Shown one piece after another: positions 1 through 29,435 of a stretch of 35,343 bases of DNA. Every line of letters starts with the position of its first letter. The stretch's first letter is position 1. The position numbers and the translations under genes are program-made. The stretch lies in contig JAQXLU010000020.1 of the NCBI GenBank assembly GCA_029012285.1, forward strand, positions 1 through 35,343. Direction: 5' to 3'. Origin of the DNA: Clostridiales bacterium. GTDB taxonomy: Bacteria > Bacillota > Clostridia > Christensenellales > Aristaeellaceae. The notes under the pieces are model-generated. The model did no database searches and was not told the DNA's origin. It worked only from the letters and a program-made list of their open reading frames with translations.

Positions 1-2409
1 GCGCTTGTTGTCCGCCGACGCAGCGCGGACAAGCTCATATTGTCCGCGGCTCATGGCTTTCATGCGGCGGTTGGCGTGGCGCAGGATGCGCTCAAAGAAG
101 GCCATCTGCACATAGGATTCCAGCATGATCTTCTCCCGGCCTTCCAATCGGCCGTTGGCCGTGCGGGACAATTCGGTCAGCCACATGAGGCGCTGATCCT
201 CGCGCAGCAGCGCTGAGCGCGCCCGGGCGATTTGCTCCTGGGCCTGGCGGTTGCGCCCGAGCCGGACGATCAAGGCGCGCATGCCGCCGTTGAGCCACTG
301 GCGGTTCTCCTCCAGCGACGCGAGCTGCGCGTCCAGGGCGGTCAGTTCAACCTCCGGCAGTGTGGATAGCTGCGCGCGATAGGCCTCGCGCTGGCCCTGG
401 TGAGCGGTCAGGTCGTCCGTGGCCTTGCGGTGCGCTGCATCCGCGGCGGCAATGGTCTGTTCAATGGCCGCTGCCTGCTGGCGGAGCTGGGTGATCCTTG
501 CCTGTGCAGCGCGTTTGCTCGGATAGGCCAGCTTTGCAGATAGCGCGTCCGATTGCGCCATCAGAGCCGCGAGGGTCGCCTGTTCCGCCGCGATGGACGC
601 GATAAGGGTGTTGAGCGAGGATTGCTTTTGCGCAAGCGACGCTTCCTGTGCGGGGAGGGCCTTGCATAGCGCCTCGTACCGGGCAGCACCCTGGCGGGCG
701 GCGCAGTGCTTTTGCTGGGCCTCCTCCAGCTGCCGGGTGAGCGCGTCCCTTCGCTGCTGAGCAAAGGAAGGGAGCTGCTCCAACGCGGTGGAACCAAGGC
801 ATGCTTCTGCCTGTGCCTGTACGGCTGCTTCCCGCTGCTCCGCGTCCGCCTTTGCAAGCATGTATGCGCTTTGCGCCGCGTGCTCGCGCTGCTGGGCGGT
901 GTCCCGGGCTTGCTCAGCGGCCTTCACCGCCGCTTGATCCACCGCCGATTCCGGCAGCGCTGCGGGCTGGGGATGATGCGTGCTGCCGCATACCGGGCAG
1001 GGGGCCCCGGGCCGCAGGGATTCCTTCGCCAAATGCCCTGCCTGCTGGGAGAACCATGCCGCCGACAGCTGCTGATACCGCGCCTGAGCCTCGGTGGTCG
1101 CGCGCAGGCTGCTCTGCCACTGTGCGCCCCGAAGCTGCGCGTCCCTACGGGTATGCAGCAACGTATCGTATTCCCGGCAGAGCGCGTCCAGCTCGTCCAG
1201 TGCGTGCTGAGTCTGCTCGTAGGCTTGCTTTTGCCGTTCAGCCTCCGCCGCGCAGGAGGTCAAGGCAGCCTGTTCCGCCCTGCATCGCGCGATGGCCTTC
1301 TCCTCATTCGTCGCGCCCGATTGCAGAGCGTCCGCGTCCGCCTGGGCTTCCCGGATATGGCTGCTCAATGCGCGTGCCTTCTCGTTGCATGCGTCGAGCT
1401 GGTCGTAATCCGGCATCAGCGCCTCAATGGACGCGGCCTCCGTGGTGGATAGCGCGGCCCGGGGCTGCTCCTGGCGCGCCGTGTTCAGCGCGGCGGAGGT
1501 GGATTCTAGCAATGCCGCATCCCGCGAAAGCTGCGCATCGGCTTGTTGCAACTGATGCAGCAGCTTTTGCCGCAGCAGCGCCTGCTCCCGCTGACGCGCC
1601 AGCGCCCTGCCGTCCTCATCCACCTGATGCAGCGCGGTTTGCATTGCAGATTCCGCCTCCGCGTCATGCGCGATGTAGGCAGATAGCAGCGCGTCCGCCT
1701 CCGAAGGGGCCAGCGTGTCCTCTTGCAGGGCAGTCAGCTGGTCGGCCTGCGCATCCTCCGGGTCAGCCTCCACGGTGCGCAACGCATCCCGGATGATGCG
1801 CCGCTGCTCGTCGCAGACGCGCTTTTGCTCGGCGGCATCCTGGTTGAGCCGATCCTGCAAACGGTTGTAATTCGCAGTGGAGAACAAATCCCGGAAGAGC
1901 TCGCGGCGCTTGTCTGTGTCGGCCCGGAGCAGCTCGCGAAATTCCCCCTGGGCAATCATGGAAACCTGCTTGAACTGCTCCCGGGTCAGCCCCAGCAGCT
2001 CGATCAGGCGACGGTTGACCGATCTGTCCGCCACAGTGATGCCGTCGGGCAGCGTCAATTCCACGCTGGGCTTTTCTTCCACCAGGCCTGTGCCGCGCAG
2101 GCTGGGCCGCATGTACGCCGGACTTCTACGGACGGTGTAGGTCTGATCGTGGTGGCGGAAGGTCAGCTTCACATAGGTGGGCACATCGGGCGTGGCGTAG
2201 GTGCAGCGCAGCATCTTGACGGTGCGCTCGTTGCTGCCGGAGGGGTCATCGTAGAGCGCATAGGTGATCGCGTCAAAGATGGTCGTCTTGCCCGCGCCCG
2301 TGTCGCCGCAGATGAGGTACAGCCCCGTTTCCCCCAGGCATGAGAAATCCAGCTCCTGCACACCGGCGTAGGAGCCAAAGGCACTCATGGTCATTTTCAG
2401 CGGTCTCAT
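1..2409 (-). CDS. sbcC: SbcC, ATPase subunit of the SbcCD nuclease (3' part cut by window edge)
   Basis: Large SMC/Rad50-like ATPase that works with SbcD to open and cut hairpins and blocked DNA ends in the cytoplasm. The first 803 codons are present and no stop was met where I checked the frame. The N-terminus has the Walker A loop CGDTGAGKTT (about residue 35) after an SMC-like start, and the Q-loop region SMIAQGEFRELL follows. Long Ala/Glu/Arg/Gln-rich coiled coils flank a zinc hook CPVCGSTHHP at about residues 471-480. The last visible residues (MSRGQYELVR) match the region just before the signature/Walker B half, so roughly 200 C-terminal residues lie outside the window. The ATG overlaps the sbcD stop as ATGA, so the two genes are translationally coupled. 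No long ORF on the other strand here is credible. Confidence 0.95.
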   Translation of the reverse strand, partial: MRPLKMTMSAFGSYAGVQELDFSCLGETGLYLICGDTGAGKTTIFDAITYALYDDPSGSNERTVKMLRCTYATPDVPTYVKLTFRHHDQTYTVRRSPAYMRPSLRGTGLVEEKPSVELTLPDGITVADRSVNRRLIELLGLTREQFKQVSMIAQGEFRELLRADTDKRRELFRDLFSTANYNRLQDRLNQDAAEQKRVCDEQRRIIRDALRTVEADPEDAQADQLTALQEDTLAPSEADALLSAYIAHDAEAESAMQTALHQVDEDGRALARQREQALLRQKLLHQLQQADAQLSRDAALLESTSAALNTARQEQPRAALSTTEAASIEALMPDYDQLDACNEKARALSSHIREAQADADALQSGATNEEKAIARCRAEQAALTSCAAEAERQKQAYEQTQHALDELDALCREYDTLLHTRRDAQLRGAQWQSSLRATTEAQARYQQLSAAWFSQQAGHLAKESLRPGAPCPVCGSTHHPQPAALPESAVDQAAVKAAEQARDTAQQREHAAQSAYMLAKADAEQREAAVQAQAEACLGSTALEQLPSFAQQRRDALTRQLEEAQQKHCAARQGAARYEALCKALPAQEASLAQKQSSLNTLIASIAAEQATLAALMAQSDALSAKLAYPSKRAAQARITQLRQQAAAIEQTIAAADAAHRKATDDLTAHQGQREAYRAQLSTLPEVELTALDAQLASLEENRQWLNGGMRALIVRLGRNRQAQEQIARARSALLREDQRLMWLTELSRTANGRLEGREKIMLESYVQMAFFERILRHANRRMKAMSRGQYELVRAASADNKR

Positions 2410-3563
2410 GCCCTGTCCTCCCAGATCTCGCGGATGAGGCGCTCCATATAATGGGTTTGCTCCTCGCTCATGTCCATCCCGTTGGCTTGCTGGTAGAATG
2501 CCTCAAACAGGGAAAGCGGGGTGTGCTTGTTCGCATCCACCGCCGTGGAGAAGTCCTCTGCCTCGCGGGTGCGTGCGTTGTCCCAGTCCAGGTGGGTGAT
2601 GCGGGGGTACACCTGGCGCAGGCGGTTCATTACGTCCGGGATGGGCGTGTCGTCGGTGAGAATCACGTGGGTGTAAGCATCCCGGTCAGCATGGCGGAGG
2701 AATGCCTCGCCGGTGACTTCCTCAAAGCGGCCCTTCACCTCCGCCAGGCGGCGCGGCGCGGGAATGGTCTCGTGGCGTAAGGTCACGCTGTGGTCAGCGG
2801 AGAGCTCCGCGATGGTGACGGACTTCTCCATGCCCGCCTCGGAAAAGTCGTAGGCCATGGGCGTGCCGCAATAGTGGATGCGCTCGCTGCCCACGTTCTG
2901 CCTGCGGTGCAGATGGCCCAGCGCCACAAGGTCGAAGGGGGCGAAGCAACGGGCTTCCACCAGGTCGCTGCCACCCACGTTTACCTCTGCCGTGGCATAG
3001 AATAGCGTTTCCTCCGAGCCGCTGAGCGCACCGCCCGCCACAAACTGGTGCGCCACGAGCACATTGCGCCGCGTCGGGTTAATGGTCATGTGACGGATGG
3101 CGCAATTCACCGCGTCGTTGGTCGTTTCAATGTTTTCCTCGGGGAAGAATGGCCGAACCGTGGCAGCCTTCAAAAAGGGGAGGAGCCACACATCCACAGG
3201 CCCGGCGTCGTCCACCAGGGTGACGGGGGTGACTTGCCCGCGATAGACGGGGGAAATGTGCAGTCCGCTTTCCTGCAGCGGCCCGGAGAGGAAGGAGAGT
3301 CGCTCCGCCGAATCGTGGTTGCCGTTGATGACGCACACCGTCGTCTCCCTTGTCAGCGCCGCCAGGAAGGTATCCAGCAGCTGGGTGGCATACACCGGCG
3401 GAACGCTGCGGTCATACACATCTCCCGCGATGAGCACCGCCTGGGGCTTTTCCGCCTGGGCGATCAGGCGAATGCGTTCGAGCATTTCCGCCTGTTCCTC
3501 CTGCAGGGAATACCGGTGCAGCTGGCGCCCCAGGTGCAAGTCGGACAGGATCAGGAACTTCAT
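2406..3563 (-). CDS. sbcD: SbcD, Mre11-like nuclease subunit
   Basis: Metallophosphoesterase-type exo/endonuclease that partners SbcC in processing hairpins and double-strand ends. The protein has 385 residues, normal for the family. The phosphoesterase motifs are in order: SDLHLGR near residue 7, GDVYDRSVPP near 48, NGNHDSAERL near 80, VAHQF, and LGHLHRRQ. The start at 3563 (MKFLILSDLHLG) is chosen over an upstream in-frame codon because GGGAGG sits about 10 nt before it and the protein then begins with the conserved first strand. It is the first gene of the sbcD-sbcC operon; the 4-base ATGA overlap joins it to sbcC. A good promoter lies just upstream, facing the TetR-type gene. Confidence 0.96.
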   Translation of the reverse strand: MKFLILSDLHLGRQLHRYSLQEEQAEMLERIRLIAQAEKPQAVLIAGDVYDRSVPPVYATQLLDTFLAALTRETTVCVINGNHDSAERLSFLSGPLQESGLHISPVYRGQVTPVTLVDDAGPVDVWLLPFLKAATVRPFFPEENIETTNDAVNCAIRHMTINPTRRNVLVAHQFVAGGALSGSEETLFYATAEVNVGGSDLVEARCFAPFDLVALGHLHRRQNVGSERIHYCGTPMAYDFSEAGMEKSVTIAELSADHSVTLRHETIPAPRRLAEVKGRFEEVTGEAFLRHADRDAYTHVILTDDTPIPDVMNRLRQVYPRITHLDWDNARTREAEDFSTAVDANKHTPLSLFEAFYQQANGMDMSEEQTHYMERLIREIWEDRA

Positions 3564-3594
3564 GTCGTGCTTCCTCCCAATGGTTACTGCACCT

Positions 3595-3623
3595 ATTATC
3601 CCCCATGGCGGCGGATTCGTCAA
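3595..3623 (-). promoter_or_regulatory. sigma-A promoter of sbcDC
   Basis: Read on the minus strand: -35 TTGACG (3623-3618), 17-bp spacer, -10 GATAAT (3600-3595), about 32 nt before the sbcD start. Its -35 lies inside the inverted repeat shared with the divergent regulator. Confidence 0.7.
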
Positions 3624-3651
3624 GTATCCCGTCATTTCTATGCTTGACGAA
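3616..3651. repeat. Perfect 9-bp inverted repeat spanning two divergent -35 boxes (candidate operator)
   Basis: TTCGTCAAG (3616-3624) and CTTGACGAA (3643-3651) are exact inverted copies separated by 18 bp. Each arm contains the -35 box of one divergent promoter, sbcDC leftward and the TetR-type gene rightward. This is the natural place for an autoregulatory TetR operator, but the arms could match partly because both promoters use TTGACG. Confidence 0.5.
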
Positions 3652-3672
3652 AGGCGGGCCTTGGCCTATACT
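3644..3672 (+). promoter_or_regulatory. sigma-A promoter of the TetR-type gene
   Basis: -35 TTGACG (3644-3649), 17-bp spacer, -10 TATACT (3667-3672). A second TATACT overlaps at 3672-3677. The gene's ATG is 33 nt further on. Confidence 0.7.
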
Positions 3673-3705
3673 ATACTTTATAACCAGCAGAAGGAGAACG
3701 AGGCC

Positions 3706-4386
3706 ATGCGCAAGGGCGATGAAAAAAGACAGGAGCTGCTCCAGGCGGCGGAAAGGCTGTTTTGCCAGCAGGGGTACGAAAGGACCAGTGTGCAGGACAT
3801 CCTGAATGAAATTTCACTGTCCAAGGGCGGGTTCTACCATCACTTTGCCAGCAAGGAGGAGGTGCTCACGGCCCTGTGCGACCGCCGCGCGGAGAGGGCT
3901 GCGATGTATACCGCAGAGGCGCTGTCCCAGGCGGAAAGCGCGCTGCAGCGCCTGAACGCGGTGCTGCACGGCTTCATGCCGCTGCGCCGGGAGGAGGCCG
4001 ATTTTGTGGCCATGCTGCTGCCCACCATCGAGAAAGCGGAGGGCCGGGGCATCGCCATGACCTACCAGGACGCGCTGGTTGCCCACTTTTCCCCGCTGCT
4101 CAAGGCAGAAATCGCCGCAGCATCGGCGGTGGAAGCCATCTATCCGCCGGTGAAGGACATCGAGGGGGTGATTCTCCATCTGGTGAACCACTGCTGGATG
4201 GAAGCCGCCGCAGAGATGGCCTGTGCCCGCCGGGAGGGTCAGCGGCTGGAACAGCTGACGCTGCTGCACCTGCTGGAGAAATACCGCCGCGCCATCGAAG
4301 CGCTGCTGGACGCGCCCTTTGGCTCGATGGAGATCATCCGCGTGGAGGAATGGGACGAGGTATTCCGGCAGATGAAGGATATATAA
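3706..4386 (+). CDS. TetR/AcrR-family transcriptional regulator
   Basis: Predicted dimeric DNA-binding repressor of 226 residues. The N-terminal TetR helix-turn-helix is clear: RQELLQAAERLF, then TSVQDILNEISLSKGGFYHH and FASKEEVL (about residues 8-55). The rest is a helical ligand/dimer domain with no recognisable specificity. The start is set by AAGGAG nine bases before ATG 3706; the open frame extends upstream only through the promoter. It is divergent from sbcDC across about 140 bp with back-to-back promoters and a shared inverted repeat, which suggests autoregulation and possibly control of sbcDC (inference). No transporter, the usual target of such regulators, is adjacent. It is followed by a hairpin terminator. 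Confidence 0.92.
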   Translation: MRKGDEKRQELLQAAERLFCQQGYERTSVQDILNEISLSKGGFYHHFASKEEVLTALCDRRAERAAMYTAEALSQAESALQRLNAVLHGFMPLRREEADFVAMLLPTIEKAEGRGIAMTYQDALVAHFSPLLKAEIAAASAVEAIYPPVKDIEGVILHLVNHCWMEAAAEMACARREGQRLEQLTLLHLLEKYRRAIEALLDAPFGSMEIIRVEEWDEVFRQMKDI

Positions 4387-4407
4387 GGCGACAATAAAAG
4401 CATATGG

Positions 4408-4444
4408 AAACGCGCAGACCGCTGTGACAGCCTGCGCGTGTTTC
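4408..4444. terminator. Rho-independent terminator after the TetR-type gene, probably bidirectional
   Basis: Stem ACGCGCAG (4410-4417) / CTGCGCGT (4432-4439) encloses a smaller GCTG-tga-CAGC hairpin. It is followed by GTTTCATTT on the plus strand and flanked by AAA on the other side. The convergent kinase pseudogene ends at 4443. Confidence 0.6.
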
Positions 4445-4843
4445 ATTTGATGGCATCAATGATATTCCGCATCTCCCGGACGATCTGTCCGGGGGATTTG
4501 TTGTCCATCCAAATCAAATGATCCCTGCATGCCCCGGCTCATGCAGCCAGTGTGTAATCCTTTGCAGTTATGGCGTCCAGGATGGGCCTGCGGATGTCCT
4601 CATACATCGCCACCACCGAGGAAAACACGACATAATCAAATCCGGATTGCAGATAATTGTCCAGCGCAAAAGCCATCACCCGGTCGCCATTGCGTAGCCG
4701 GGGATCCTGTACCGAAAACGGGTTGACGCACCATGCCATTCGCCGTCAAAGAACGCGCTGTTCTCATAGGACTGAAACAGCAAATCCGCGACCGTCGTTT
4801 TGCCCACGCAGGGCGAACCGGTAATGAGAATCAGCTTCTGCAT
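4443..4843 (-). pseudogene. Decayed P-loop nucleotide/nucleoside kinase-like gene
   Basis: The reading frame is broken. From ATG 4843, preceded by AGGAGGG, it begins with a P-loop kinase N-terminus (LILITGSPCVGKTTVADLL) and runs to FFDGEW. One base is then missing near 4736-4741 (family motif DGxWxWxxNPF), and the protein continues in another frame as WCVNPFSVQDPRLRNG, YVVFSSVVAMYEDIRRPILD and AKDYTL. A TGA follows at 4541-4539. The same frame then resumes with the family C-terminus DHLIWMDNKSPGQIVREMRN and IIDAIK, ending at TGA 4445-4443. About 40 residues between DYTL and DHLI appear deleted. An intact relative would be about 170-180 residues. It lies 15 bp behind the YgiQ gene and would have been co-transcribed. 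Recent decay is likely, because the remaining segments still match well. Confidence 0.75.
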
Positions 4844-4858
4844 TGATTACCCTCCTGT

Positions 4859-6811
4859 TTACCTCCGTCCCCGGGCGCGCCCTCTGCCCGGGCCGCCCTC
4901 CTCGTTGCCGTGGCGGCGGGGCTTGGTGGGCAGCTTGTCCGCATGGCGGATGGCTTTGCGCTCGTGGGCGGGGTTGTCGCGCTTGCCGGTGCTGCGCCGG
5001 GCCTCCCGCAGCGATTCGCGCTCCGGCGGCACAAGGCATTCGCGGCCCGTGCCGATCAGATCCTCCCGCCCGGCCAGCCGCAGCGCCTTGCGCACCAGCT
5101 CATGATTGCGCGGATTGCCAAACTGCATCAGCGCGCGCTGCATGGCCTTGTCTTCCGGCGAACGGGCGACAAAGACCGGCTTCATCGTGCGGGGATCCAG
5201 CCCGGTGTAGAACATGCAGGTGCTCAGCGTGCCGGGCGTCGGGTAAAAATCCTGCACCTGGTCGGGCTGGAAGCCGATGTCCCTCAAATAGCAGGCCAGC
5301 TCGACCGCGGCGTTCAGATCGCTGCCGGGGTGGCTGGACATCAAATAGGGGATCAGATACTGCCGCTTGTCCAGCCTTCCGTTGACCTGCGCATACTTTT
5401 CGCAGAAGGCGTCGTATAGCTCCCGGCGGGGCTTGCCCATCTTGTCCAGCACATAGGGGCAAACGTGCTCCGGTGCGACCTTCAGCTGCCCGGACACGTG
5501 ATGCTCGCAGAACTCCTTGAGGAAGGAGGCATTGTGGGGGTCGGCCATGATGTAGTCATAGCGCAGCCCGGAGCGGACGAACACCTTCTTCACCCTGGGC
5601 AGCTCCCGCAGCTGGCGCAGCAGGGCCATGAATTCCGAGTGATCGACCTCCAGGTTCTTGCAGGGGCGGGGAAAAAGGCACTGCCGCTGCTTGCATGCGC
5701 CAACCTTCATCTGATTCGGGCAGGCGGGCTTGCGGAAATTTGCCGTCGGGCCGCCCACATCGTGGATGTAGCCCTTGAAGTTGGGTAGCGTCGTCAAAAG
5801 CCGGGCTTCCTTGACGATGGATTCCGGGCTGCGGCTCTGAATGATGCGCCCCTGGTGGAAGGTGATGGCGCAGAAGGAGCACGACCCAAAGCAGCCCCTG
5901 GTGGAGGCCAGGGAGAATTCAACCTCCTGCAATGCGCTCACGCCGCCGTCCGCGTCATACATGGGATGCCAGGTGCGGGTGTAGGGCAGCTCATACACCG
6001 CGTCCAACGCCTCCCGTGACAGGGGCAACGACGGCTGATTCTGGATCAGATACCGGTCCTTGTCCTGCTGCTGGCACATGCGCTTGCCCCGGATGGGGTC
6101 CTGCTCGTCATACTGCATGATGAAGGCCTCGCAGTACTTCTTCCTGTCCGCTGTGACCTCTTGGTGGCTGGGAAGCTGCAAGCAGGATGCATCCGCCGTC
6201 CTGGACATGTAGCAGATGCCGCGGATGCGGGGCAGCTCCGCCGGATTCATGCCGTCCGCCACCCAGTTGGCGCACTCGACGATGCTTGTTTCGCCCATGC
6301 CGTACATCAGCAGCGTCGCGCCGGAATCCACCAGGATGCTGTGGCGTACCCTGTCGTCCCAGTAATCGTAGTGGGAAAAGCGCCGCAGGGAGGCTTCCAC
6401 TCCGCCAATCAGGATGGGCACATCCCGGTATGCCTGGCGGATGCGGTTGCAGTAGACGATCACCGCGCGGTCAGGGCGCATCCCGGCCTTGCCGCCGGGG
6501 GCGTAGGCGTCATCATGGCGGCGCTTTTTGGCGACGGTATAGTGGTTGACCATGCTGTCGATCACGCCGGAGGACACCAGGAAGCCCAGCCTTGGCCGCC
6601 CGAAGCGCTTGAAGGCGCTTTCATCCTGCCAGGGTGGCAGGCAGAGCATCGCCACGCGATACCCCGCCTTTTCCAGCACACGGCTGATGATGGCATGCCC
6701 GAAGGAGGGGTGATCCACATAGGCTTCGCCCACGACATACACAAAATCCGGCGCATCCCAGCCACGGGCATGGCATTCCTCCAGGGTGACAGGCAAAAAG
6801 GTCTTGTTCAT
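4859..6811 (-). CDS. YgiQ-family radical SAM protein
   Basis: Radical SAM enzyme of the conserved but uncharacterised YgiQ family; 650 residues, normal length. An N-terminal domain (MNKTFLPVTLEEC, FVYVVGEAYVDHPSFGHAII) precedes the radical SAM core. The cluster motif CFGSCSFC lies at about residue 310. Conserved GGVEASLRRFSHYDYWDDRV and IHDVGGPTANFRKPACPNQ segments are present. The C-terminus is a basic tail rich in Arg and Gly, typical of this family. ATG 6811 is chosen because AGAGGG precedes it by about 9 bases; an upstream TTG is weaker. The gene has its own promoter and once shared a transcript with the kinase remnant downstream. The reaction is unknown. Confidence 0.93.
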   Translation of the reverse strand: MNKTFLPVTLEECHARGWDAPDFVYVVGEAYVDHPSFGHAIISRVLEKAGYRVAMLCLPPWQDESAFKRFGRPRLGFLVSSGVIDSMVNHYTVAKKRRHDDAYAPGGKAGMRPDRAVIVYCNRIRQAYRDVPILIGGVEASLRRFSHYDYWDDRVRHSILVDSGATLLMYGMGETSIVECANWVADGMNPAELPRIRGICYMSRTADASCLQLPSHQEVTADRKKYCEAFIMQYDEQDPIRGKRMCQQQDKDRYLIQNQPSLPLSREALDAVYELPYTRTWHPMYDADGGVSALQEVEFSLASTRGCFGSCSFCAITFHQGRIIQSRSPESIVKEARLLTTLPNFKGYIHDVGGPTANFRKPACPNQMKVGACKQRQCLFPRPCKNLEVDHSEFMALLRQLRELPRVKKVFVRSGLRYDYIMADPHNASFLKEFCEHHVSGQLKVAPEHVCPYVLDKMGKPRRELYDAFCEKYAQVNGRLDKRQYLIPYLMSSHPGSDLNAAVELACYLRDIGFQPDQVQDFYPTPGTLSTCMFYTGLDPRTMKPVFVARSPEDKAMQRALMQFGNPRNHELVRKALRLAGREDLIGTGRECLVPPERESLREARRSTGKRDNPAHERKAIRHADKLPTKPRRHGNEEGGPGRGRARGRR

Positions 6812-6843
6812 CAGCGAACCCTCTTTCCGCAAGGTATGTCACC

Positions 6844-6872
6844 ATTGTAGAGGAAGCCGCCTTGAAAGTCAA
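6844..6872 (-). promoter_or_regulatory. sigma-A promoter of the YgiQ gene
   Basis: Minus strand: -35 TTGACT (6872-6867), 17-bp spacer, -10 TACAAT (6849-6844), 33 nt before the start codon. It is divergent from the deoD promoter. Confidence 0.7.
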
Positions 6873-6887
6873 GCATGCAAATACCGG

Positions 6888-6916
6888 TGGACAAAGCGCA
6901 CGCTTCATGGTAAAAT
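6888..6916 (+). promoter_or_regulatory. sigma-A promoter of deoD
   Basis: -35 TGGACA (6888-6893), 17-bp spacer, -10 TAAAAT (6911-6916), 37 nt before the deoD ATG. Confidence 0.6.
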
Positions 6917-6952
6917 GCAGGCAGAGAAATCGTGACCGAAAGGAGCGTTCCT

Positions 6953-7654
6953 ATGATTCCGACCCCCCATATCACCGCCAGGGAGGGCGATTTTGCCCCC
7001 ACTGTCCTCATGCCCGGCGACCCGCTGCGGGCCAAGTTCATCGCCGACACCTATCTGGAGGACGCGGTGCTGGTCAATAACACCCGGGGCGTGCAGGGGC
7101 ACACCGGCTTCTACAAGGGCAAGCGCGTGTCCGTGATGGCCAGCGGCATGGGCATGCCCTCCATCGGCATCTATTCCTACGAGCTGTTCAACTACTATGG
7201 CGTGGAGAACATCATCCGCGTGGGTACGGCGGGCAGGATCAGCCAAAGTCTGAAGGTGCGCGACGTTGTGGCGGGTATGAGCGCGTATACCAATTCCTCC
7301 TTCGGGGAACAGTATGGCTTCCAGGGTCATTTGGCGCCCTGCTGCTCCTGGAAGCTGCTTAAGGCGGCGGTGGAGGCTGGCGAGCGCCTCGGCGCGCATG
7401 TTGTCCCCGGCGCGCTGTATTCCTCCGATGTGTTCTATGACGAACGCCCCCAGGGGAAGATCCTCCAGGGCCTGGGTGTGCTCGCGGTGGAAATGGAAGC
7501 GGCCGCGCTCTACCTCACCGCAGCCCGCGCGGGAAAGAACGCGCTGTCCATCTGCACCATCTCCGACAATCCCTTCACCGGGGAAGGCCTGAGCGCGGAG
7601 GAACGCCAGAACTCCTTCACCCAGATGATGGAGATTGCCTTGGAAATCGCCTGA
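6953..7654 (+). CDS. deoD: Purine nucleoside phosphorylase, DeoD type
   Basis: Cytoplasmic hexameric-type phosphorylase of purine (deoxy)nucleosides, giving free base and (deoxy)ribose 1-phosphate in nucleotide salvage. The product has 233 residues, as expected. Family motifs are TPHITA at the N-terminus, MPGDPLRAKFIA (phosphate binding), ASGMGMPSIGIYSYEL, IIRVGTAG, EMEAAALY (ribose binding) and SDNPFTGE with the catalytic Asp. ATG 6953 follows AAAGGAG by 7-8 bases; the upstream in-frame start lacks an SD. It is followed after 14 bp by a small ferredoxin gene with its own SD, likely on the same transcript, which ends at the hairpin at 7954-7986. Confidence 0.97.
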   Translation: MIPTPHITAREGDFAPTVLMPGDPLRAKFIADTYLEDAVLVNNTRGVQGHTGFYKGKRVSVMASGMGMPSIGIYSYELFNYYGVENIIRVGTAGRISQSLKVRDVVAGMSAYTNSSFGEQYGFQGHLAPCCSWKLLKAAVEAGERLGAHVVPGALYSSDVFYDERPQGKILQGLGVLAVEMEAAALYLTAARAGKNALSICTISDNPFTGEGLSAEERQNSFTQMMEIALEIA

Positions 7655-7668
7655 ATGGGAGGATGCTC

Positions 7669-7947
7669 ATGACCCGATTGCTTTATGACGATGAAAAGCT
7701 GCGCGTCCGCGTTTGCGGCGGCATCCACTGTGCCGGAAACGGCGGCGGACGTGCGCTGGAGGACGCTTTCCAGGATGCGCTGGAAGCAGCCGGTATCGCA
7801 GCGCAGGTGGAGCTATTGCGGGCCCACTGCCTCGGCGCATGCCAGGATGGCCCCTGCGTGCGCATCGCGGGGGAGCGATTCTACCATGTGCAGACAGCGG
7901 ATGTGCCCGGCCTGGTGCGCGATGAAATTCTCCCGCGCATGAAATGA
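7669..7947 (+). CDS. Small thioredoxin-like [2Fe-2S] ferredoxin domain protein
   Basis: A 92-residue single-domain protein resembling the [2Fe-2S] thioredoxin-like fold of NuoE/HndA subunits and stand-alone Trx-like ferredoxins. The cysteine pattern fits: C16 and C21 (VCGGIHCAGNGG), then C54 and C58 (AHCLGAC), plus an extra C63 in DGPCVRI. It would be a soluble electron carrier; the partner is not evident. ATG 7669 is preferred over ATG 7663, because GGGAGG ends at 7662 and would touch the first ATG but stands 6 bases from the second. It lies directly behind deoD and before a terminator. A redox role tied to purine salvage is not established. Confidence 0.85.
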   Translation: MTRLLYDDEKLRVRVCGGIHCAGNGGGRALEDAFQDALEAAGIAAQVELLRAHCLGACQDGPCVRIAGERFYHVQTADVPGLVRDEILPRMK

Positions 7948-7953
7948 TCCCAT

Positions 7954-7986
7954 AAGGCAGACGGAATGTACCGCCTGCCTTTTATT
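7954..7986. terminator. Bidirectional terminator between the ferredoxin gene and sigF
   Basis: AAGGCAG-a-CGG (7954-7964) pairs with CCG-c-CTGCCTT (7971-7982), followed by TTTATT on the plus strand and preceded by A-rich sequence. The TAA of the convergent sigF lies in its edge. Confidence 0.65.
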
Positions 7987-8674
7987 CTGCCAGCGCCCGT
8001 TTGAGCAGCGTGCGGATGATCCTCTCTCGCCGGGACACCTGCATCTGCGTCATGCCCAGGCGCATTCCGGCCTCTCGCTGCGTCAGCCCGACGCGGTAGC
8101 GCAGCAGGATCAGCTTGCGGTCAAGTGCGGGCAGCTTGTCCAGGATGTCTCGCAGCTCCAGGCGGGATTGCCAGTCCTCCGGGTCGGGCAGCAAATCAAG
8201 CAGGGCGCTGCCGCCTGGGGATTGCGTATCGGTGGAGACCACGCGAACCTCCTCCAGGTGGAGCATGAGCTCGGTGGCGTCCATGCGCATTTCCGCCGAT
8301 AGCTCCTGTACGGTGGGCTCGCGGTGGAGGGTCGCTGACAGGGACTGCTCCGCCTGGCGGATGGCCCTGCGGAGCGCCACTTCCGTGCGGGGAATGTGGA
8401 GGGGCTGCGCCGTCCGGGTCAGCAGCCGCATTTCCCCCAATATCCATGCCGCCGCGTAGGTGGAGAAGGCTGCATCGCGGGACGGGTCGAATTGGCGCAG
8501 GGCCTTCATCAGCCCGATGACGCCCTGCTGGTAGAGCTCCTCCCGCGCGCAGGTGGCGGGGAAGCGCCGCACCATCGCCCCCACCAGCGGCAGATGCTTC
8601 TCCGCCAGGGCCTGTATGGCCTCCGGGCCAGCAGCGCGGGCCTGCAGAAGCTCTTGTGTGAAGGTTGCATTCAA
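7982..8674 (-). CDS. sigF: RNA polymerase sporulation sigma factor SigF (SpoIIAC)
   Basis: Forespore-specific sigma factor of the sigma-70 family, 230 residues. Region 2 is clear: EELYQQGVIGLMKALRQFDP, then AFSTYAAAWILGEMRLL. Region 3 follows (VALRRAIRQAEQSL, PTVQELSAEM), and region 4 has the helix-turn-helix TQREAGMRLGMTQMQVSRRE. The start is TTG 8674: GGAGGG stands six bases before it and its first bases overlap the spoIIAB stop as TTGA. Longer frames upstream only cover spoIIAB. In the family it is held inactive by SpoIIAB until SpoIIAA releases it after septation; the gene order here is the classic spoIIA order. Confidence 0.95.
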   Translation of the reverse strand: MNATFTQELLQARAAGPEAIQALAEKHLPLVGAMVRRFPATCAREELYQQGVIGLMKALRQFDPSRDAAFSTYAAAWILGEMRLLTRTAQPLHIPRTEVALRRAIRQAEQSLSATLHREPTVQELSAEMRMDATELMLHLEEVRVVSTDTQSPGGSALLDLLPDPEDWQSRLELRDILDKLPALDRKLILLRYRVGLTQREAGMRLGMTQMQVSRRERIIRTLLKRALAE

Positions 8675-9108
8675 TGGACGCCCTCCGCGCCAATCCGTTT
8701 GCGCATGCGCACCGAGGTGCCGCTGCCGGGCGCGGATTGCACCTCCACCTCGTCCATGAAGGTCTGCATGACCGCAAAGCCCATGCCGCTGCGCTCCTGC
8801 TCGGGGTGGGTGGTGAAGAAGGGCTCCATGGCCTGCTTGACGTTGGTGATACCCTTCCCCCGGTCGGAGACCTCGATGGCCAGCGCCTTGCCGTCGATGA
8901 TGGCCCGCATGGTCACCAGGCCCCGCGTGCCCTCGTAGCCATGGACGATGGCGTTGGTGACGGCCTCCGATACGGCGGTTTTGACGTCGGCAATCTCGGA
9001 CACGGTGGGGGAGAGCTGCACCGCGAAGGCCGCAATCACCACCCGGGCAAAGGCCTCGTTTTCCGGGACGCTCAGGAAGCTCACTTCCATTTCGTTGTGT
9101 CTGTTCAT
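8671..9108 (-). CDS. spoIIAB: Anti-sigma F factor / serine kinase SpoIIAB
   Basis: GHKL-fold protein kinase and anti-sigma factor that binds SigF and phosphorylates SpoIIAA; 145 residues, standard. The ATP-lid motifs are visible: SEAVTNAIVHGYEG (N box), EVSDRGKGI (G1), and FFTTHPEQERSGMGFAVM (G2). The ATG overlaps the spoIIAA stop as ATGA, and its TGA overlaps the sigF start, so all three genes are coupled. Confidence 0.96.
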   Translation of the reverse strand: MNRHNEMEVSFLSVPENEAFARVVIAAFAVQLSPTVSEIADVKTAVSEAVTNAIVHGYEGTRGLVTMRAIIDGKALAIEVSDRGKGITNVKQAMEPFFTTHPEQERSGMGFAVMQTFMDEVEVQSAPGSGTSVRMRKRIGAEGVH

Positions 9109-13355: not shown

Positions 13356-13374
13356 GTGCATCCCTCCTGGTATG

Positions 13375-13403
13375 AAAAACCGCCGCACAAAGACATGCGG
13401 CGG
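13375..13403 (-). terminator. Rho-independent terminator after the YigZ gene
   Basis: Minus strand: CCGCCGCA (13403-13396), 8-nt loop, TGCGGCGG (13387-13380), then TTTTT (13379-13375). Strong GC stem directly after the YigZ stop. Confidence 0.8.
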
Positions 13404-13408
13404 CAGGT

Positions 13409-14047
13409 TTATTCGTTTGCATCCCACGCCTGGTAGGATTCGTCCTCCAGCAGGTATTCAAACCTGCCGTCGGTCAGGCGGACAAGGTCAGATAGCATGG
13501 CCTCGGCATCCTTCTCGCGCACCAGCAGCGTGAAGCCCACGGCGGTGGTGAATTCGCTCCCCACCAGCTGCACGGGCATGGCCTTGAGCGCGTGGGTCAC
13601 CCTGTCCCACAGGGAATAGGCTACCTCGCACAGATACCGTTGGCTGGGCTCCATCACCACGACCTGGGCGGCTTTGAGCGCGATCACCGTGCCCTGCGTA
13701 TACGCCCGGACAAGCCCGCCCGCGCCCAGCAGCACGCCACCGAAATAGCGGGTCACCACCACGCAGCAGTTGACCACGCCCTGGGCCTTGAGCACCTCCA
13801 TCATGGGCAATCCCGCTGTGCCGCCGGGCTCTCCATCGTCGGAGTAGCGCATGATGCCCGCGTTCCTGCCGATGATGTAGGCGTAGCAGTTGTGGGTCGC
13901 GTCCTTGTGTTTCGTGCGTATCCTTTGCAGGAAAGCAAGCGCTTCTTCCTCCGTTTGGCAGGGGCAGGCGTAACCGATGAAGCGGCTCTTGTTGATGACC
14001 ACCTCATCGGACGCCTCCCGCCGCAGCGTCTTGTATGGCGCGCTCAT
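13409..14047 (-). CDS. YigZ/IMPACT-family protein
   Basis: 212-residue member of the UPF0029/IMPACT family. The N-terminal domain carries [30 protein letters not shown] and [18 protein letters not shown], then [22 protein letters not shown]-terminal DUF1949-type domain follows. The molecular role of bacterial YigZ is not settled; eukaryotic IMPACT acts in translation control. The ATG overlaps the tyrS stop as ATGA, so the two are translationally coupled. A strong terminator closes the operon right behind it. Confidence 0.93.
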
Positions 14048-15270
14048 TGGAGGATCAGGCGGCGGAAGCCCTTCTTGCCCTTTTGCAGCATCAGGCCGTC
14101 CGCGCCGAACTGCTCGGCAGAAATGGTGGCGTTCATGTCGGTGACTTTTTCATCTGCCACCAGCACCGCGCCGGCTTTGATCTGATTGCGTGCGTCGGAC
14201 TGGCTCTTGCACAGCCCGGATTTGACCAGCATGGTGGTGACGCGAGCGTCCTCGGCCAGGTCGGCTGCGGTCAGCTCAAAGGAGGGGACGCTGGCACTGT
14301 TCATGCCGCCGCCGAACAGGGAAGCCGCCGCCTCCGCCGCCTTTTGGGCTTCCTCCTCGCCGTGCACCAGCTTGGTGACCTCGTAGGCCAGCACCTTCTT
14401 GGCCTCGTTGATGGCGCTGCCCTCCAGCGCGCCCAGGCGGCGCACCTCGTCCATGGGCAGGAAGGTCAGAAGGCCCAGGCACTTTTCCACGTCCTTGTCG
14501 TCCACATTGCGCCAGTACTGGTAGAAGTCAAAGGGCGAGGTCTTGTTGGGATCAAGCCACAGCGCGCCCTTTTCGGTCTTGCCCATCTTCTTGCCGTCGT
14601 GGGTGAGCAGCAGCTGGAAGGTGCAGGCGAAGGCCTTCTCGTTGTCCTTGCGGCGCACCAGGTCAGCGCCGCCCAGCATGTTGGACCACTGGTCGTTGCC
14701 GCCCATTTCCAGACGGCAGCCGTAGCGGTGGAAGAGCTCCAGGAAGTCGTAGGACTGCATGAGCATGTAGGTGAATTCCAGGAAGGACAAGCCGTTCTCA
14801 GATTCCATGCGGGCGCGGTAGCAATCGGCGCGCAGCATGGTGTTGACGGAGAACATGGAGCCGATGTCGCGCATGAAGTCGATGAAGTTGAGGTGACGCA
14901 GCCAGTCGCCGTTGTTGACGATGATCGCCTTGCCGTCAGAGAAGTCCAGGAAGCGGCTCATCTGCTGCTTGATGCACTCCACGTTCTGGTCGATGGTTTC
15001 GACGGTCATCATCTTGCGCATGTCGGTCTTGCCGCTGGGGTCGCCGATCATGGCGGTGCCGCCGCCCATCAGCGCGATGGGCTTATGACCGGCTTTCTGC
15101 ATGTGGGCCATGGCCATGATCGGGATGTAATGGCCGATATGCAGGGAATCCGCCGTGGGGTCGAAGCCCACGTAGAAGGTGGTGGGCTCTTCCAGCTGCT
15201 TGTACAATTCGTCCTCAAAGGTGACCTGGGCGATAAAGCCGCGTTCCTTCAAAACGTCAAGAATGTGCAT
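14044..15270 (-). CDS. tyrS: Tyrosyl-tRNA synthetase
   Basis: Class I aminoacyl-tRNA synthetase joining tyrosine to tRNA-Tyr; 408 residues, typical of the bacterial TyrS. The HIGH motif is intact at residues 44-47 (SLHIGHYIP), the tyrosine pocket includes GGNDQW at 190-195, and the KMSKS equivalent is KMGKT at 228-232. A C-terminal S4 RNA-binding domain follows (from about 345, [20 protein letters not shown]). GAGGAGG precedes the ATG by nine bases. It is the second gene of a T-box-led operon, 27 bp behind an aminotransferase. Confidence 0.97.
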
Positions 15271-15297: not shown

Positions 15298-16482
15298 TTA
15301 CTTGGATGCTTCCGCGATCACCTCGCGGATGATGGCCATCCCCTTGTGAATCTGCTCCACCGTGGAGTTGGAGAAGTTTAGCCGCAGCGTGTTGTGGTGG
15401 CCGCCCTCTGCGAAGAAGTGGGTGCCGGGCACATAGACCACGCCGCGTGCAACGCAGGTGTTGAGCATCTCCAGCGCGTCCAGATGAGCGGGCAGCTCCA
15501 CCCAGATGAACAAGCCGCCCTCGGGGTGGGTGTAGGTCGTGCCCTCGGGGAAGGTCGCCAGCTCGGCAAGCATGGTGTCCAGCTGCTCCTTGTAGGAAGC
15601 GCAGATGCTGCGGATGTGCTCTGGCAGCAGCTTTTGCCGCAGGAACTGATCGACGATGGCCTGGGTCAGGTTGGAGGTGTGTACGTCCGAGGACTGCTTG
15701 CCCACGGTGCATTTGCGCAGAATACGGGGGTCGCCTGCCATATAGCCCACGCGGATGCCGGGGGAGATGATCTTGGAGAAGCTGCCAAGGAACACCACCC
15801 AGCCCTCCTTGTCGTAGGACTTGATGGAGGGCAGCGCCGTGCCCGCATAGCGCAAATCGCGGTAGGGGTCGTCCTCCGCCACCACCACGCCGTATTTGGC
15901 GGCCAATTCCGCGATGGGCTGGCGGCGATCCGCAGACAGCGTCTTGCCGGTGGGGTTCTGGAAGGTCGGGATGGTATAGAGAATCTTCGGGTGATGGCGG
16001 ATGATGGCTTCCTCCAGCTTGTCGATGAGGATGCCGTTCTCATCGCTTTCCACCGGCACGACGTTGGCCTCGTACAGGCGCATGCACTGCATGTTGCCCA
16101 GGAAGGTGGGGTTCTCCACCAGGATGACGTCGCCGGGGTTAATTAGCGCCTTGCACAAGAGGTCCATCGCCTGGGTGGAGCCGGTGGTGGGCAGCACGCA
16201 GTCCAGCTGGCAGCCCAGCGCGTCCTCGGCGTAGGTGTGCAGGCTTTCCAGCAAGGGCGCATAGCCCTCGGTTGCGCCGTACTGCAGGATGGTCTTGCCG
16301 TCCTTTTCCAGCACGTCTTTGGCGATCTGTGCGCACACAGCATCCGGCAGGGCAGATTTGGCCGGGTTGCCGCCTGCGAAGGAGATCATGCCCGGCTTGG
16401 CGATGAGCTTGAAGATTTCGCGGATGGCGCTGCCGGACACGTTGTCAAACCTGTGCGCATATTGCAGTTGTTCCAGTTTCAT
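15298..16482 (-). CDS. PLP-dependent aminotransferase, class I/II (2-aminoadipate/aromatic type)
   Basis: 394-residue fold-type I aminotransferase of the LysN/AadAT-like subgroup. Visible motifs: SFAGGNPAKSALP near the N-terminus, LPTTGSTQAMDLL, PTFQNPTGKTLS (NPTG 176-179), AEDDPYRDLRY (PLP-pyridine Asp), and FLGSFSKIISPGIRVGY with the PLP lysine at 237; the carboxylate Arg is in LRLNFSN. ATG 16482 follows AAGGAG; the longer frame upstream only crosses the T-box terminator. The gene is led by a tyrosine-type T-box and followed by tyrS. This suggests a tyrosine-linked transamination such as 4-hydroxyphenylpyruvate to tyrosine, but substrate cannot be read from sequence. Confidence 0.93.
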   Translation of the reverse strand: MKLEQLQYAHRFDNVSGSAIREIFKLIAKPGMISFAGGNPAKSALPDAVCAQIAKDVLEKDGKTILQYGATEGYAPLLESLHTYAEDALGCQLDCVLPTTGSTQAMDLLCKALINPGDVILVENPTFLGNMQCMRLYEANVVPVESDENGILIDKLEEAIIRHHPKILYTIPTFQNPTGKTLSADRRQPIAELAAKYGVVVAEDDPYRDLRYAGTALPSIKSYDKEGWVVFLGSFSKIISPGIRVGYMAGDPRILRKCTVGKQSSDVHTSNLTQAIVDQFLRQKLLPEHIRSICASYKEQLDTMLAELATFPEGTTYTHPEGGLFIWVELPAHLDALEMLNTCVARGVVYVPGTHFFAEGGHHNTLRLNFSNSTVEQIHKGMAIIREVIAEASK

Positions 16483-16498
16483 GGGGTTCACACTCCTT

Positions 16499-16542
16499 AA
16501 AAAATAGAAATCACCCTCTCCGGCAATGCCGGGGAAGGTGAT
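16499..16542 (-). terminator. Regulated intrinsic terminator of the T-box
   Basis: Minus strand: ATCACC..CCGGC pairs with GCCGG..GGGTGAT across an ATT loop (outer arms 16542-16510), followed by TTCTATTTTTT. It ends just before the aminotransferase SD. Confidence 0.9.
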
Positions 16543-16778
16543 GAATTGCATCACGATACCACTTCCGTTCAGCCGACCATGGTCAGCCCTCATCGAGGAA
16601 CAAGCATTCCTCCCGCGCGATAACCGGCGCACCGGATGCCACCTACTGACCCATCAGGCGTTCAGCGCATGGCTCGGAGCTGTACTTCGCCTTATCGTGC
16701 GCACCGCTTCCTCGCAGCGACCGGAAGCTCTCTGAAGGCGCGTCACAGGCAGGCTACTCGTCTCCTCATTGCCCTGTT
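16499..16778 (-). ncRNA. T-box riboswitch (tyrosine type) leading aminotransferase-tyrS-YigZ
   Basis: Minus-strand 5' leader. Stem I has AGTA in the specifier loop (16758-16755) and the distal motif AGAGAGC (16733-16727), with GGTCGCTGCGAG following. The 3' side of the specifier loop is GAA-G-TAC-A, giving specifier TAC (Tyr) at 16684-16682. The antiterminator is textbook: GGAAG (16566-16562), 7-nt bulge TGGTATC (16561-16555), GTGATG (16554-16549), loop, CATCAC (16543-16538), CTTCC (16537-16533). TGGT in the bulge would pair with an uncharged ACCA end, consistent with discriminator A of tRNA-Tyr. CATCACCTTCC is shared with the terminator, so the two folds exclude each other. Uncharged tRNA-Tyr should allow read-through. 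Confidence 0.93.
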
Positions 16779-16784
16779 GGTGGT

Positions 16785-16813
16785 ATTATATGCGCTTTGC
16801 CGTGCACTGTCAA
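16785..16813 (-). promoter_or_regulatory. Consensus sigma-A promoter of the T-box operon
   Basis: Minus strand: -35 TTGACA (16813-16808), 17-bp spacer, -10 TATAAT (16790-16785); a perfect consensus match. Predicted RNA start is near 16778. Confidence 0.9.
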
Positions 16814-27536: not shown

Positions 27537-29435
27537 ATGAAGCGTATCATTGCGACCCTGCTGTCCCTGGCGCTGGTCATGACCAGCATGATCCTGCCCG
27601 TCATGGCCGAGTCCGCCGATGCCGATATCATCATCGTCGGTGCAGGCGGCGCAGGTCTGTCTGCCGCCATTAACGCCGCCGAGGCGGGTGCGGAGAAGGT
27701 CATCGTGCTGGAAATGACCGCCAAGACCGGCGGCGCGCTGAACTTCACCTCCGGCTCCATGTCCGCTGCCGGAACCATCATCCAGAAGGAAGAGGGGATC
27801 GAGGATACCGTCGATTCCTACGTGGCCGACATCATTAACAACGGCGATGACTTCGGCGGTCAGCCCAATGAAAAGCTGATTCGCGTGTATGCCAACGACG
27901 CTGCCGAGGTGTTCGACTGGCTGTACGAGAATGGCATCAAGGATGCGACCTGGCGCGGCCCCAAGGCTGTGTTCGCCCCCGAGCATGCCCTGTACTCCAT
28001 CAAGCGTACCTACAAGCCCGCTGCGACCGACCCCAACTACAAGTCTGCTGCCCATCAGGTGCTGGACAAGCTGATCGCCGCGGATGAGCGTATTGAGGTG
28101 ATCACCCTGACCACCGCCAAGGAGCTTCTCGCCAATGAGAAGGGCCAGATCACCGGCGTGAAGGCCGTCGGCCCCAATGGTGAGGTGACCTACACCGCCA
28201 AGAACGGCGTGATTGTCTGCACCGGCGGCTACTCTGCCAACAGCAAGCTGATGGGTCTGTACGCCGAAAACGGCGAGAACTACCTTGCCGGCGGTGCGCC
28301 CGGCGCGGACGGCTACGGCATCTACATGATGCAGAAGGTCGGCGCTGGCGTGACCGGCATGGACTGCATCCCCACCTTCCCCATGGGTCTGATCAGCAAG
28401 GATGATCCCACCAGGGGTCAGATTGCTTCCACCTACACCTGGAAGACCGGCGGCATCGCGGTCAACAAGGAAGGCAACCGCTTCTGCAACGAAACCGAGG
28501 AGACCGTCTCCATCCGTGAGGTTGCCCTGGAGCAGCAGCCCGACGCGGTGCTGTTCGATATCTACACTGACAAGATCCTGGAAGACCTGATGCAGACCAG
28601 TTCCTCCATCTTCATGAAGTTCTACTTCTATGAGGGCGGCGCGGGCGAGCATGTGATGTACGCGGCTGACTCCATCGAGGAGCTGGCGGAGAAGATCGGC
28701 GTGCCCGCCGAGAACCTCAAAAAGACCGTCGAGACCTACAATGCCGCCGTGGAGGCCGGTGTGGATGCTGAGTTTGGCCGCAAGCTGGACGGCACCGACA
28801 CCAACTATAACCTGGCCATCAACAAGATCGAGGGCGACAAGTACTACGCCATCCGGCTGCATGCCCTGTGCGTCATGACCCTGGGCGGCGTGACGGCCAA
28901 CGAGAACATGCAGGTGCTGGATGAAAACGGCAACGTGATTCCCGGCCTGTACGCCGCTGGCGAGTGCGTGGGCGGCATCTGGGGCAAGTTTGTCTCCGGC
29001 GGCACCGGTGTGATGGGCCCGATTGTCTTTGGCCGCATCGCTGCCCGCCATGCCATGTCCAACGAGATGGCTGAGGGCTACACCGTGAAGGAAGCCGCGA
29101 ACATTCTGGACGCGGCCCTGTTCGAGAAGGAAACCTCCGCTGAGGAGAAGTTCGACATGACCCGTGCCCTCAAGGACGGCGAGTACGAAGCCACTGTCGA
29201 CGGCCAGAGCGGCCCCATGGTGGTGAAGGTCGTGATCGCCGAGGGTAAGATCGCGGCAGTTGAGGTCGTCTCCCACAACGAGACCCTGGCCATCGCTTCC
29301 GCGCCCCTTTCCTCCATCCCCGCTGCCATCGTCGCCAATAACTCCGCGACTGTGGACGCTGTGGCTGGCGCGACCCTGACCTCCAACCGCATTATGGACG
29401 CTGTTGCCCAGTGCCTGGAGCAAGCCGCGAAGTAA
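27537..29435 (+). CDS. Secreted FAD-dependent oxidoreductase with C-terminal FMN-binding domain (flavocytochrome c/fumarate-reductase-like)
   Basis: 632 residues, exported. A Sec signal peptide covers about residues 1-24 (cleavage after PVMA); no lipobox. The FAD_binding_2 domain starts ADIIIVGAGGAGLSAAINAAEAGA, with TGGALNFTSGSM, NGVIVCTGGYSAN, and VIPGLYAAGECVGGIWG. The C-terminal ~85 residues form an FMN_bind domain with DAVAGATL, where Thr613 would carry FMN attached by ApbE (no apbE here). Usual fumarate-reductase active-site positions differ: NExTTRD is NETEETV, HHTMGG is VMTLGG, NRLGGN is FVSGGT. A reductase for another organic acceptor is likely; substrate unknown. SD GAAAGGGGA precedes the ATG. 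It stands alone, with its own promoter and terminator. Confidence 0.9.
   Translation: MKRIIATLLSLALVMTSMILPVMAESADADIIIVGAGGAGLSAAINAAEAGAEKVIVLEMTAKTGGALNFTSGSMSAAGTIIQKEEGIEDTVDSYVADIINNGDDFGGQPNEKLIRVYANDAAEVFDWLYENGIKDATWRGPKAVFAPEHALYSIKRTYKPAATDPNYKSAAHQVLDKLIAADERIEVITLTTAKELLANEKGQITGVKAVGPNGEVTYTAKNGVIVCTGGYSANSKLMGLYAENGENYLAGGAPGADGYGIYMMQKVGAGVTGMDCIPTFPMGLISKDDPTRGQIASTYTWKTGGIAVNKEGNRFCNETEETVSIREVALEQQPDAVLFDIYTDKILEDLMQTSSSIFMKFYFYEGGAGEHVMYAADSIEELAEKIGVPAENLKKTVETYNAAVEAGVDAEFGRKLDGTDTNYNLAINKIEGDKYYAIRLHALCVMTLGGVTANENMQVLDENGNVIPGLYAAGECVGGIWGKFVSGGTGVMGPIVFGRIAARHAMSNEMAEGYTVKEAANILDAALFEKETSAEEKFDMTRALKDGEYEATVDGQSGPMVVKVVIAEGKIAAVEVVSHNETLAIASAPLSSIPAAIVANNSATVDAVAGATLTSNRIMDAVAQCLEQAAK

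Follow-up and report, generated by a model that had tools for sequence, protein, structure and literature searches.

T-box leaders ahead of tyrS are standard, as in C. difficile (CD1521; noted in a passage of PMC11477304) and B. subtilis, and in the B. cereus group a T-box precedes a tyrosine biosynthesis operon (both in a section of PMC2494555). Here we describe such a leader on the reverse strand of a contig from a Clostridiales bacterium of the family Aristaeellaceae (JAQXLU010000020.1 of assembly GCA_029012285.1, positions 1 to 35,343; this whole stretch of 35,343 nucleotides (nt) is hereafter the window), where a promoter and a tyrosine T-box are followed by an aminotransferase gene, tyrS and yigZ, in the order that an original prediction had proposed from the letters alone, and by a terminator after yigZ. 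Our computational analysis shows the T-box anatomy, a tyrosine specifier, a matching tRNA and a conserved gene order. The leader resembles tyrS-type T-boxes (RF00230) in its Stem I motifs (AGUA/GAA and AGAGAGC), its UAC and its UGGU and, as far as the sections cited go, in an antiterminator and terminator that exclude each other and in the presence of tyrS in the unit. It differs in that an aminotransferase comes first and yigZ last, in a bulge that ends in AUC instead of ACC, and in a score below the gathering threshold. The operon of the B. cereus group, as that section presents it, likewise puts tyrosine-making genes under a tyrosine T-box; our locus departs from it in having synthetase and aminotransferase under one T-box, with tyrA on another contig. 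We estimate a probability of about 0.77 that a transcriptional T-box sensing tRNA-Tyr controls the aminotransferase-tyrS-yigZ unit and that the aminotransferase most likely makes tyrosine. The mechanism is known, indeed textbook, and the regulon is lineage-specific; what is added is a clue to function: family models give this aminotransferase no specific substrate, and the tRNA that its T-box senses suggests an aromatic one, in a large group of gut bacteria that are mostly uncultured.

Anatomy and specificity of the leader

The unit begins with a sigma-70-type promoter (16785–16813, on the reverse strand like all features of this locus), whose TTGACA-17-TATAAT matches the consensus at 12 of 12 bases, as had been claimed. 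The RF00230 model aligns to 16531–16778 over its full length (model positions 1–219 of 219; 76.6 bits, E 5e-17, computed for 401 bases of leader), and every T-box part named in the original prediction (AGTA, AGAGAGC, GAA-G-TAC, a bulged antiterminator and a terminator) could be located. Sequence and Rfam alignment place the AGUA (AGTA) strand of the specifier loop at 16755–16758 and the AGAGAGC motif of Stem I at 16727–16733. The specifier UAC (Tyr; 16682–16684) lies in the loop sequence GAA-G-UAC-AGCUCC-GAGC, 6 nt before GAGC. The antiterminator, GGAAG-(UGGUAUC)-GUGAUG...CAUCAC-CUUCC (16533–16566, which folds as drawn), holds the 7-nt bulge UGGUAUC (TGGTATC) at 16555–16561 and has its CAUCACCUUCC side in common with an intrinsic terminator (16510–16542, from a fold of 16505–16560), which is followed by the T run TTTCTATTTTTT. 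Antiterminator and terminator are mutually exclusive, as expected of a T-box. The promoter is kept in relatives as well: in a count made without a shuffle control, 33 of 35 leaders have immediately upstream a site that agrees with the consensus at 10 or more of its 12 bases, and for 24 of the 35 the agreement is perfect.

A scan of the whole window at Rfam gathering cut-offs returned no match, because the cut-off of RF00230 (93) exceeds the 76.6 bits of this leader. The genome has 12 T-box matches, 11 of which score below 93, among them the aminotransferase-tyrS leader and those before pheS, valS and leuS; the T-box call therefore rests on the E-value and the anatomy.

Across 35 aligned leaders (our own and 34 from relatives), the antiterminator helices GGAAG/CUUCC and GUGAU/AUCAC are paired in 94.6% of cells, compared with 87.0% in shuffles, and carry 39 two-sided changes where shuffles gave 12.1. 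When one side of the antiterminator is slid by 1–3 columns, pairing falls to 39–60%. The terminator window (16505–16560) folds at −23.6 kcal/mol (z −3.38). Minimum free energy is significant neither for the antiterminator alone (−9.6 kcal/mol, z −1.07) nor for the leader as a whole (z −1.32), so that the evidence for the leader structure is its covariation and not its energy; the minimum-energy fold of the whole leader contains the terminator but not the Stem I of the model.

The specifier had been read as TAC, and this reading stands. TAC, like UGGU, is present in 35 of 35 aligned leaders, and in the same genome the T-boxes of metG (GAA-C-ATG), pheS (GAA-T-TTC) and valS (GAA-G-GTC), genes identified from translated open reading frames (ORFs), place their codon after GAA-N, so that the codon here is UAC. 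Another T-box (L011, codon ACC), whose gene is cut by a contig end, was left out of this register call. The GAA-N rule is not absolute, since most other genera have the loop GAA-TAC, in which GUA is unavailable. Of 81 leaders of relatives surveyed with a regular expression, 78 have a normally spaced TAC, and in the remaining three TAC was read by eye with altered flanks; some genomes occur in both leader collections behind this count (82 with our own leader) and are hence counted twice. The genome encodes a tRNA-Tyr with anticodon GUA, discriminator A and the end ACCA (found by scanning 8 stretches, out of 47 tRNA matches in the genome), which fits both UAC and UGGU. UGGN is taken as the T-box sequence in the part of the TBDB description cited here (PMC7778990), and the UGGU of our bulge can pair with the ACCA of the genome's own tRNA-Tyr.

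The two loop forms can be compared in alignment columns 26–35 and 101–115, where the genus has GAA-N-TAC and most other genera GAA-TAC. Leaders of the latter form are one base longer on the AGTA side, so that the loop seems to change its register around a codon that keeps its place.

Two other readings of the leader were weighed against tRNA-Tyr sensing. In a shifted frame the specifier would be GUA, and the leader would sense tRNA-Val: GUA does stand directly 3′ of GAA, and tRNA-Val often carries discriminator A. Against this frame speak the GAA-N-codon arrangement of the metG, pheS and valS leaders, a separate T-box with GTC for valS, the absence of GTA from the GAA-TAC leaders of most other genera, where TAC is invariant, and the Rfam alignment, whose consensus as read places UAC in the specifier columns. 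We consider a valine specifier extremely improbable and reject it on the register that the three leaders of the same genome set. The bulge raises a different doubt, and its end AUC, one base off the consensus ACC, weighs against a working tyrosine T-box. UGGUAUC is unique to our leader among 82, the other 81 having UGGUACC (65) or UGGUACA (16, read by eye), while UGGCAAC is found before metG and serS in the same genome. Since other leaders thus end in ACA or AAC, the consensus ACC is not obligatory. In the portion of PMC7583486 that treats the bulge, its first four bases pair with the tRNA and its last three stabilise the structure, which puts the change outside the tRNA-pairing part. The deviation noted in the original prediction is therefore real but amounts to one private change in an already variable 3′ trinucleotide; it could be a true variant or an assembly error (the genome is in 169 contigs). 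If the leader were decaying, UGGUAUC would weaken the antiterminator and leave the operon poorly inducible. The restriction of AUC to this one leader agrees with such decay, although in a 169-contig assembly it may also reflect a sequence error; both antiterminator helices, the terminator, the Stem I motifs and the promoter are intact, UGGU is unaltered, and the T-boxes of metG and serS, too, depart from the consensus at position six of the bulge. We regard decay as unlikely.

By analogy with known T-boxes, a leader sensing tRNA-Tyr would act as follows. When uncharged tRNA-Tyr accumulates, its anticodon GUA would pair with UAC and its ACCA end with the UGGU of the bulge; the bound tRNA would hold the antiterminator and RNA polymerase would pass the terminator at 16510–16542. 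Charged tRNA-Tyr would be unable to stabilise the antiterminator, and transcription would stop. In this way a tyrosine shortage would raise TyrS, which charges the tRNA, and most likely also the final step of tyrosine synthesis.

Among the other T-boxes seen, one before a gene read as hisS (L005, 675–878) has the codon GAC (Asp) by the 6-nt rule and the bulge UGGC, as if it sensed tRNA-Asp instead of tRNA-His. Another (L008, 1501–1760) carries the Trp codon UGG and precedes an ORF whose product we read as the substrate-binding protein of an ABC transporter, perhaps a TrpX-like one.

Gene order at tyrS in relatives

The aminotransferase (class I/II, pyridoxal 5′-phosphate (PLP) dependent; 394 aa, ATG at 16482) is encoded at 15298–16482, tyrS (tyrosyl-tRNA synthetase, 408 aa; TIGR00234, 427.6 bits) at 14044–15270 and yigZ at 13409–14047. 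The stop of tyrS and the start of yigZ overlap as ATGA, and an intrinsic terminator follows at 13379–13404 (window 13360–13415: −20.5 kcal/mol, z −2.67). The span first marked (15298–16813) takes in promoter, leader and aminotransferase, with tyrS and yigZ outside it. The yigZ product belongs to the IMPACT/UPF0029 family by its UPF0029 and DUF1949 domains (PF01205 and PF09186) and a TIGR00257 score of 177.9 bits, above the cut-off of 167.95. As stated in the original prediction, tyrA is not nearby: it is located on another contig (C33), and the only EPSP-synthase-type match among the ORFs scanned in the window, which were not all of its ORFs, is murA.

A tyrS gene was found in 96 of the 100 genomes searched, our own included, and 94 tyrS loci of relatives were compared, leaving out one (G010) where only the gene end was seen. 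T-boxes were called with a Stem I model of our own (R1), and absence means that none was found at the sensitivity of R1. The model found a T-box at 47 of the 94 loci (34 leaders that trained R1 and 13 new ones), always on the tyrS strand and with 141–244 nt between the end of Stem I and the unit's first gene.

Within the genus, 14 of 15 loci have both aminotransferase and T-box, the last one lying at a contig edge, and the norm is promoter, T-box, aminotransferase, tyrS and yigZ. In the family (39 loci), the aminotransferase is next to tyrS with a T-box at 20 loci and without one at 6; two further loci have a T-box and a more distant aminotransferase, 7 have the T-box straight before tyrS, 2 have neither and 2 are at a contig edge (one with a T-box). 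The order (40 loci) gives 2 with both, 15 with the aminotransferase and no T-box, 1 with a T-box only, 19 with neither and 3 at an edge. An aminotransferase at most 1.7 kb before tyrS is thus present at 14/15, 26/39 and 17/40 loci, or 57/94 in all. This tally indicates that the aminotransferase-tyrS pair extends well beyond the T-box and that our arrangement is the norm of its genus. It had been presented as unusual; instead, the genus and a large part of the family share it. The accompanying statement on tyrosine T-boxes, that they usually stand straight before tyrS, holds at 7 of the 39 family loci. The ORFs between aminotransferase and tyrS at the 8 gapped loci were read as including a GNAT-like one (L074) as the sole gene of note, and nothing aromatic was seen.

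In a search of named genomes with the aminotransferase, the best 80 of 577 matches were confirmed. Their titles are mostly metagenome assemblies of gut Clostridia or Christensenellaceae, many from ruminants, and R1 found a T-box at 34 of these 80 loci; the more distant ones among the 80 include Lysinibacillus, Ureibacillus and Pelolinea, in which no adjoining tyrS was found. Ten neighbours of aminotransferases away from tyrS (L185, L204, L205 and L236) were scanned and included no aromatic gene. At L319, L320 and L321 the aminotransferase is directly followed by yigZ, with no tyrS between them and no T-box detected; L320, a locus of the L204 type, is such an aminotransferase-yigZ pair.

Substrate of the aminotransferase

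The aminotransferase matches PF00155 (class I/II) with 125.3 bits and aligns over almost its full length with the nearest solved chains 1x0m, 3aov, 1wst and 2egy, of which we take 1x0m and 3aov to be from Pyrococcus and 1wst from Thermococcus. These relatives are named as multiple-substrate (1wst) or 2-aminoadipate (LysN, 2egy) aminotransferases, or are unassigned. With LysN, PH0207 (3aov and 1x0m) and 1wst our protein shares the SFSK region, whose K237, invariant in 19 of 19, is presumably the PLP lysine; it differs from them in its tyrosine genomic context, from which its substrate is predicted. Ser18 and Arg21 align with Ser20 and Arg23 of LysN, a pair which we assume to permit acidic as well as aromatic substrates.

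From this genomic context we predict an aromatic role, which we hold to be probable. The enzyme would make tyrosine by transaminating 4-hydroxyphenylpyruvate and would probably accept other arylpyruvates as well. TyrA would supply the keto acid; in many relatives an alternative supply would be 4-hydroxyphenylacetate, reductively carboxylated by an acyl-CoA ligase and indolepyruvate:ferredoxin oxidoreductase (IOR). In line with this, 60 of the 61 genomes in which aminotransferase and tyrS are paired (strictly in 57, across a wider gap in 2 and at contig edges in 2) have tyrA or IOR, compared with 31 of the 38 other genomes (p 0.005 by Fisher's test, which was chosen post hoc, ignores kinship and used lists copied by hand). 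The sole pair genome with neither source, G080, is 74% complete. Among the 22 genomes that lack tyrA, IOR occurs in 10 of 11 with the pair and in 4 of 11 without it (p 0.024, with the same limits). In G020 a related aminotransferase, 44% identical to the tyrS-linked one, is encoded in an operon in which a UAC T-box (7-nt spacing) leads ligase, iorA, iorB and aminotransferase (L270), while tyrS of that genome has a separate T-box and no aminotransferase.

Several results weigh against an aromatic role under T-box control. The protein matches 68 NCBIfam models; none of the 25 listed reaches its cut-off, so that no aromatic-aminotransferase model claims it, and the best score is that of PdxR (238.5 of 320). 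In 99 relatives the aminotransferase is not associated with tyrA (58 genomes with both, 15 with the aminotransferase only, 19 with tyrA only, 7 with neither; p 0.58). The genome has nine PF00155 matches; the five stronger of the other eight were scanned and are a hisC-like one (just under its cut-off), DapL, PatB and two general aspartate/PatA-like enzymes. The two general aminotransferases and the hisC-like one could themselves transaminate arylpyruvates, so that the substrate is not assignable by elimination. The claim of an aromatic substrate is supported by the context (the tyrA/IOR co-occurrence, the G020 operon and the T-boxes ahead of ligase and iorA genes in relatives) and finds no counterpart among the aromatic family models.

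The same results bear on an alternative in which the T-box serves tyrS alone and the aminotransferase is a general or 2-aminoadipate/kynurenine-type passenger of an old operon. Such a passenger would explain why no T-box was detected at 15 of the 17 order-level pairs, and it would suit both the missing association with tyrA and the solved relatives named above. It would also fit G023, G026 and G027, where a divergent tyrS has its own T-box and an aminotransferase-yigZ locus lies elsewhere with no T-box detected in its flank (3/3); in these genomes T-box control seems to have followed tyrS. On the other side, the pair is kept at 57 of 94 loci over many genera and accompanies an arylpyruvate source in all but one of its genomes, and in G020 a UAC T-box heads the operon that contains iorAB and the related aminotransferase. 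Because of the pairs and the aminotransferase-yigZ loci without a detected T-box, we retain the passenger explanation as a minority view, the least improbable of the alternatives to an aromatic aminotransferase under tRNA-Tyr control.

Putative arylacetate ligase and IOR operons

Of all leads, a possible T-box regulon that makes aromatic amino acids from arylacetates is the most interesting, and it is found in the relatives, outside the window. There, a T-box precedes an AMP-binding acyl-CoA ligase, a sodium:solute symporter, iorA and iorB. Of 41 ligase matches, 30 loci were examined, one of them in our own genome, and R1 found a T-box upstream of the ligase at 13, one of which precedes an MFS gene ahead of the ligase. 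iorA lies downstream at 8 of these 13; the other five loci are short, and what follows the ligase there is a symporter, a PaaK-like gene or a stretch without any match. The 13 ligase leaders carry UAC at 6 nt (6 leaders), UAC at 7 nt (5) or UUC (2), and in G038 and G058 leaders with UGG (Trp) stand ahead of iorA-iorB-paaK. Loci with aromatic codons (UAC, UUC or UGG), arranged as ligase/symporter/iorA/iorB or iorA/iorB/paaK, make up L270–L279. In one of them, L277, the T-box (473–701) joins a UUC (Phe) codon to a UGGC bulge; the usual tRNA-Phe ends in ACCA, which is mismatched to UGGC. Perhaps this T-box has another target, or its codon lies in another frame.

From the IOR neighbours and the T-box codons, the ligases are predicted to act on arylacetates. 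We give an even chance to a family-wide aromatic T-box regulon, mostly Tyr with some Phe or Trp, for arylacetate salvage. In it, ligase, sodium symporter and iorAB would yield arylpyruvates by reductive carboxylation, and the tyrS-linked aminotransferase under the tyrosine T-box would finish the amino acid. An operon induced by uncharged tRNA-Tyr or tRNA-Phe implies that IOR should build and not break down the amino acid, so that the direction of IOR becomes testable through the T-boxes of the relatives; if the salvage regulon is real, it marks IOR here as biosynthetic. Against such a regulon, and against the aromatic role of the aminotransferase, count the 17 of 30 ligase loci without a T-box and the five 7-nt UAC leaders, which can also be read as ACA (Thr) one base on. 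The same holds for our own genome, where contig C8 carries ligase-symporter-iorA-iorB-paaK (L280 = G000:C8:15000-27000, 1691–8705) and no T-box was found before this operon. Four genomes of the same genus (G006, G007, G009 and G010) have the ligase operon with a T-box, unlike our own.

In the rumen, bacteria can make phenylalanine from phenylacetate (Allison 1965, as cited in a passage of PMC7356843). A ligase, an uptake carrier, IOR and an aminotransferase would suit the route that this passage mentions; the difference is that here genes and T-box control are known from the sequences of relatives and that our own copy is without a T-box. If true, the salvage regulon would be a genetic and regulatory basis of rumen aromatic amino acid synthesis from aryl acids. 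No paper listed in our searches of open-access PubMed Central showed an aminotransferase-tyrS-yigZ operon or a T-box before IOR.

A bolder and less likely proposal is that YigZ belongs to a bacterial uncharged-tRNA regulon. In eukaryotes its relative IMPACT holds back GCN2, a sensor of uncharged tRNA, and nothing joining yigZ, GCN2 and bacteria was found in the open-access PubMed Central literature. The original prediction suggested that YigZ is perhaps tied to uncharged tRNA-Tyr; the gene does belong to the unit, but nothing was found linking YigZ function to tRNA-Tyr.

In the viral contigs searched, 2 stretches matched and neither encodes a relative. Elsewhere in the window, on the forward strand, 27537–29435 encodes a large reductase with FAD_binding_2 and FMN_bind domains, which is flavocytochrome-c-like and has a weaker match to vinyl phenol reductase.

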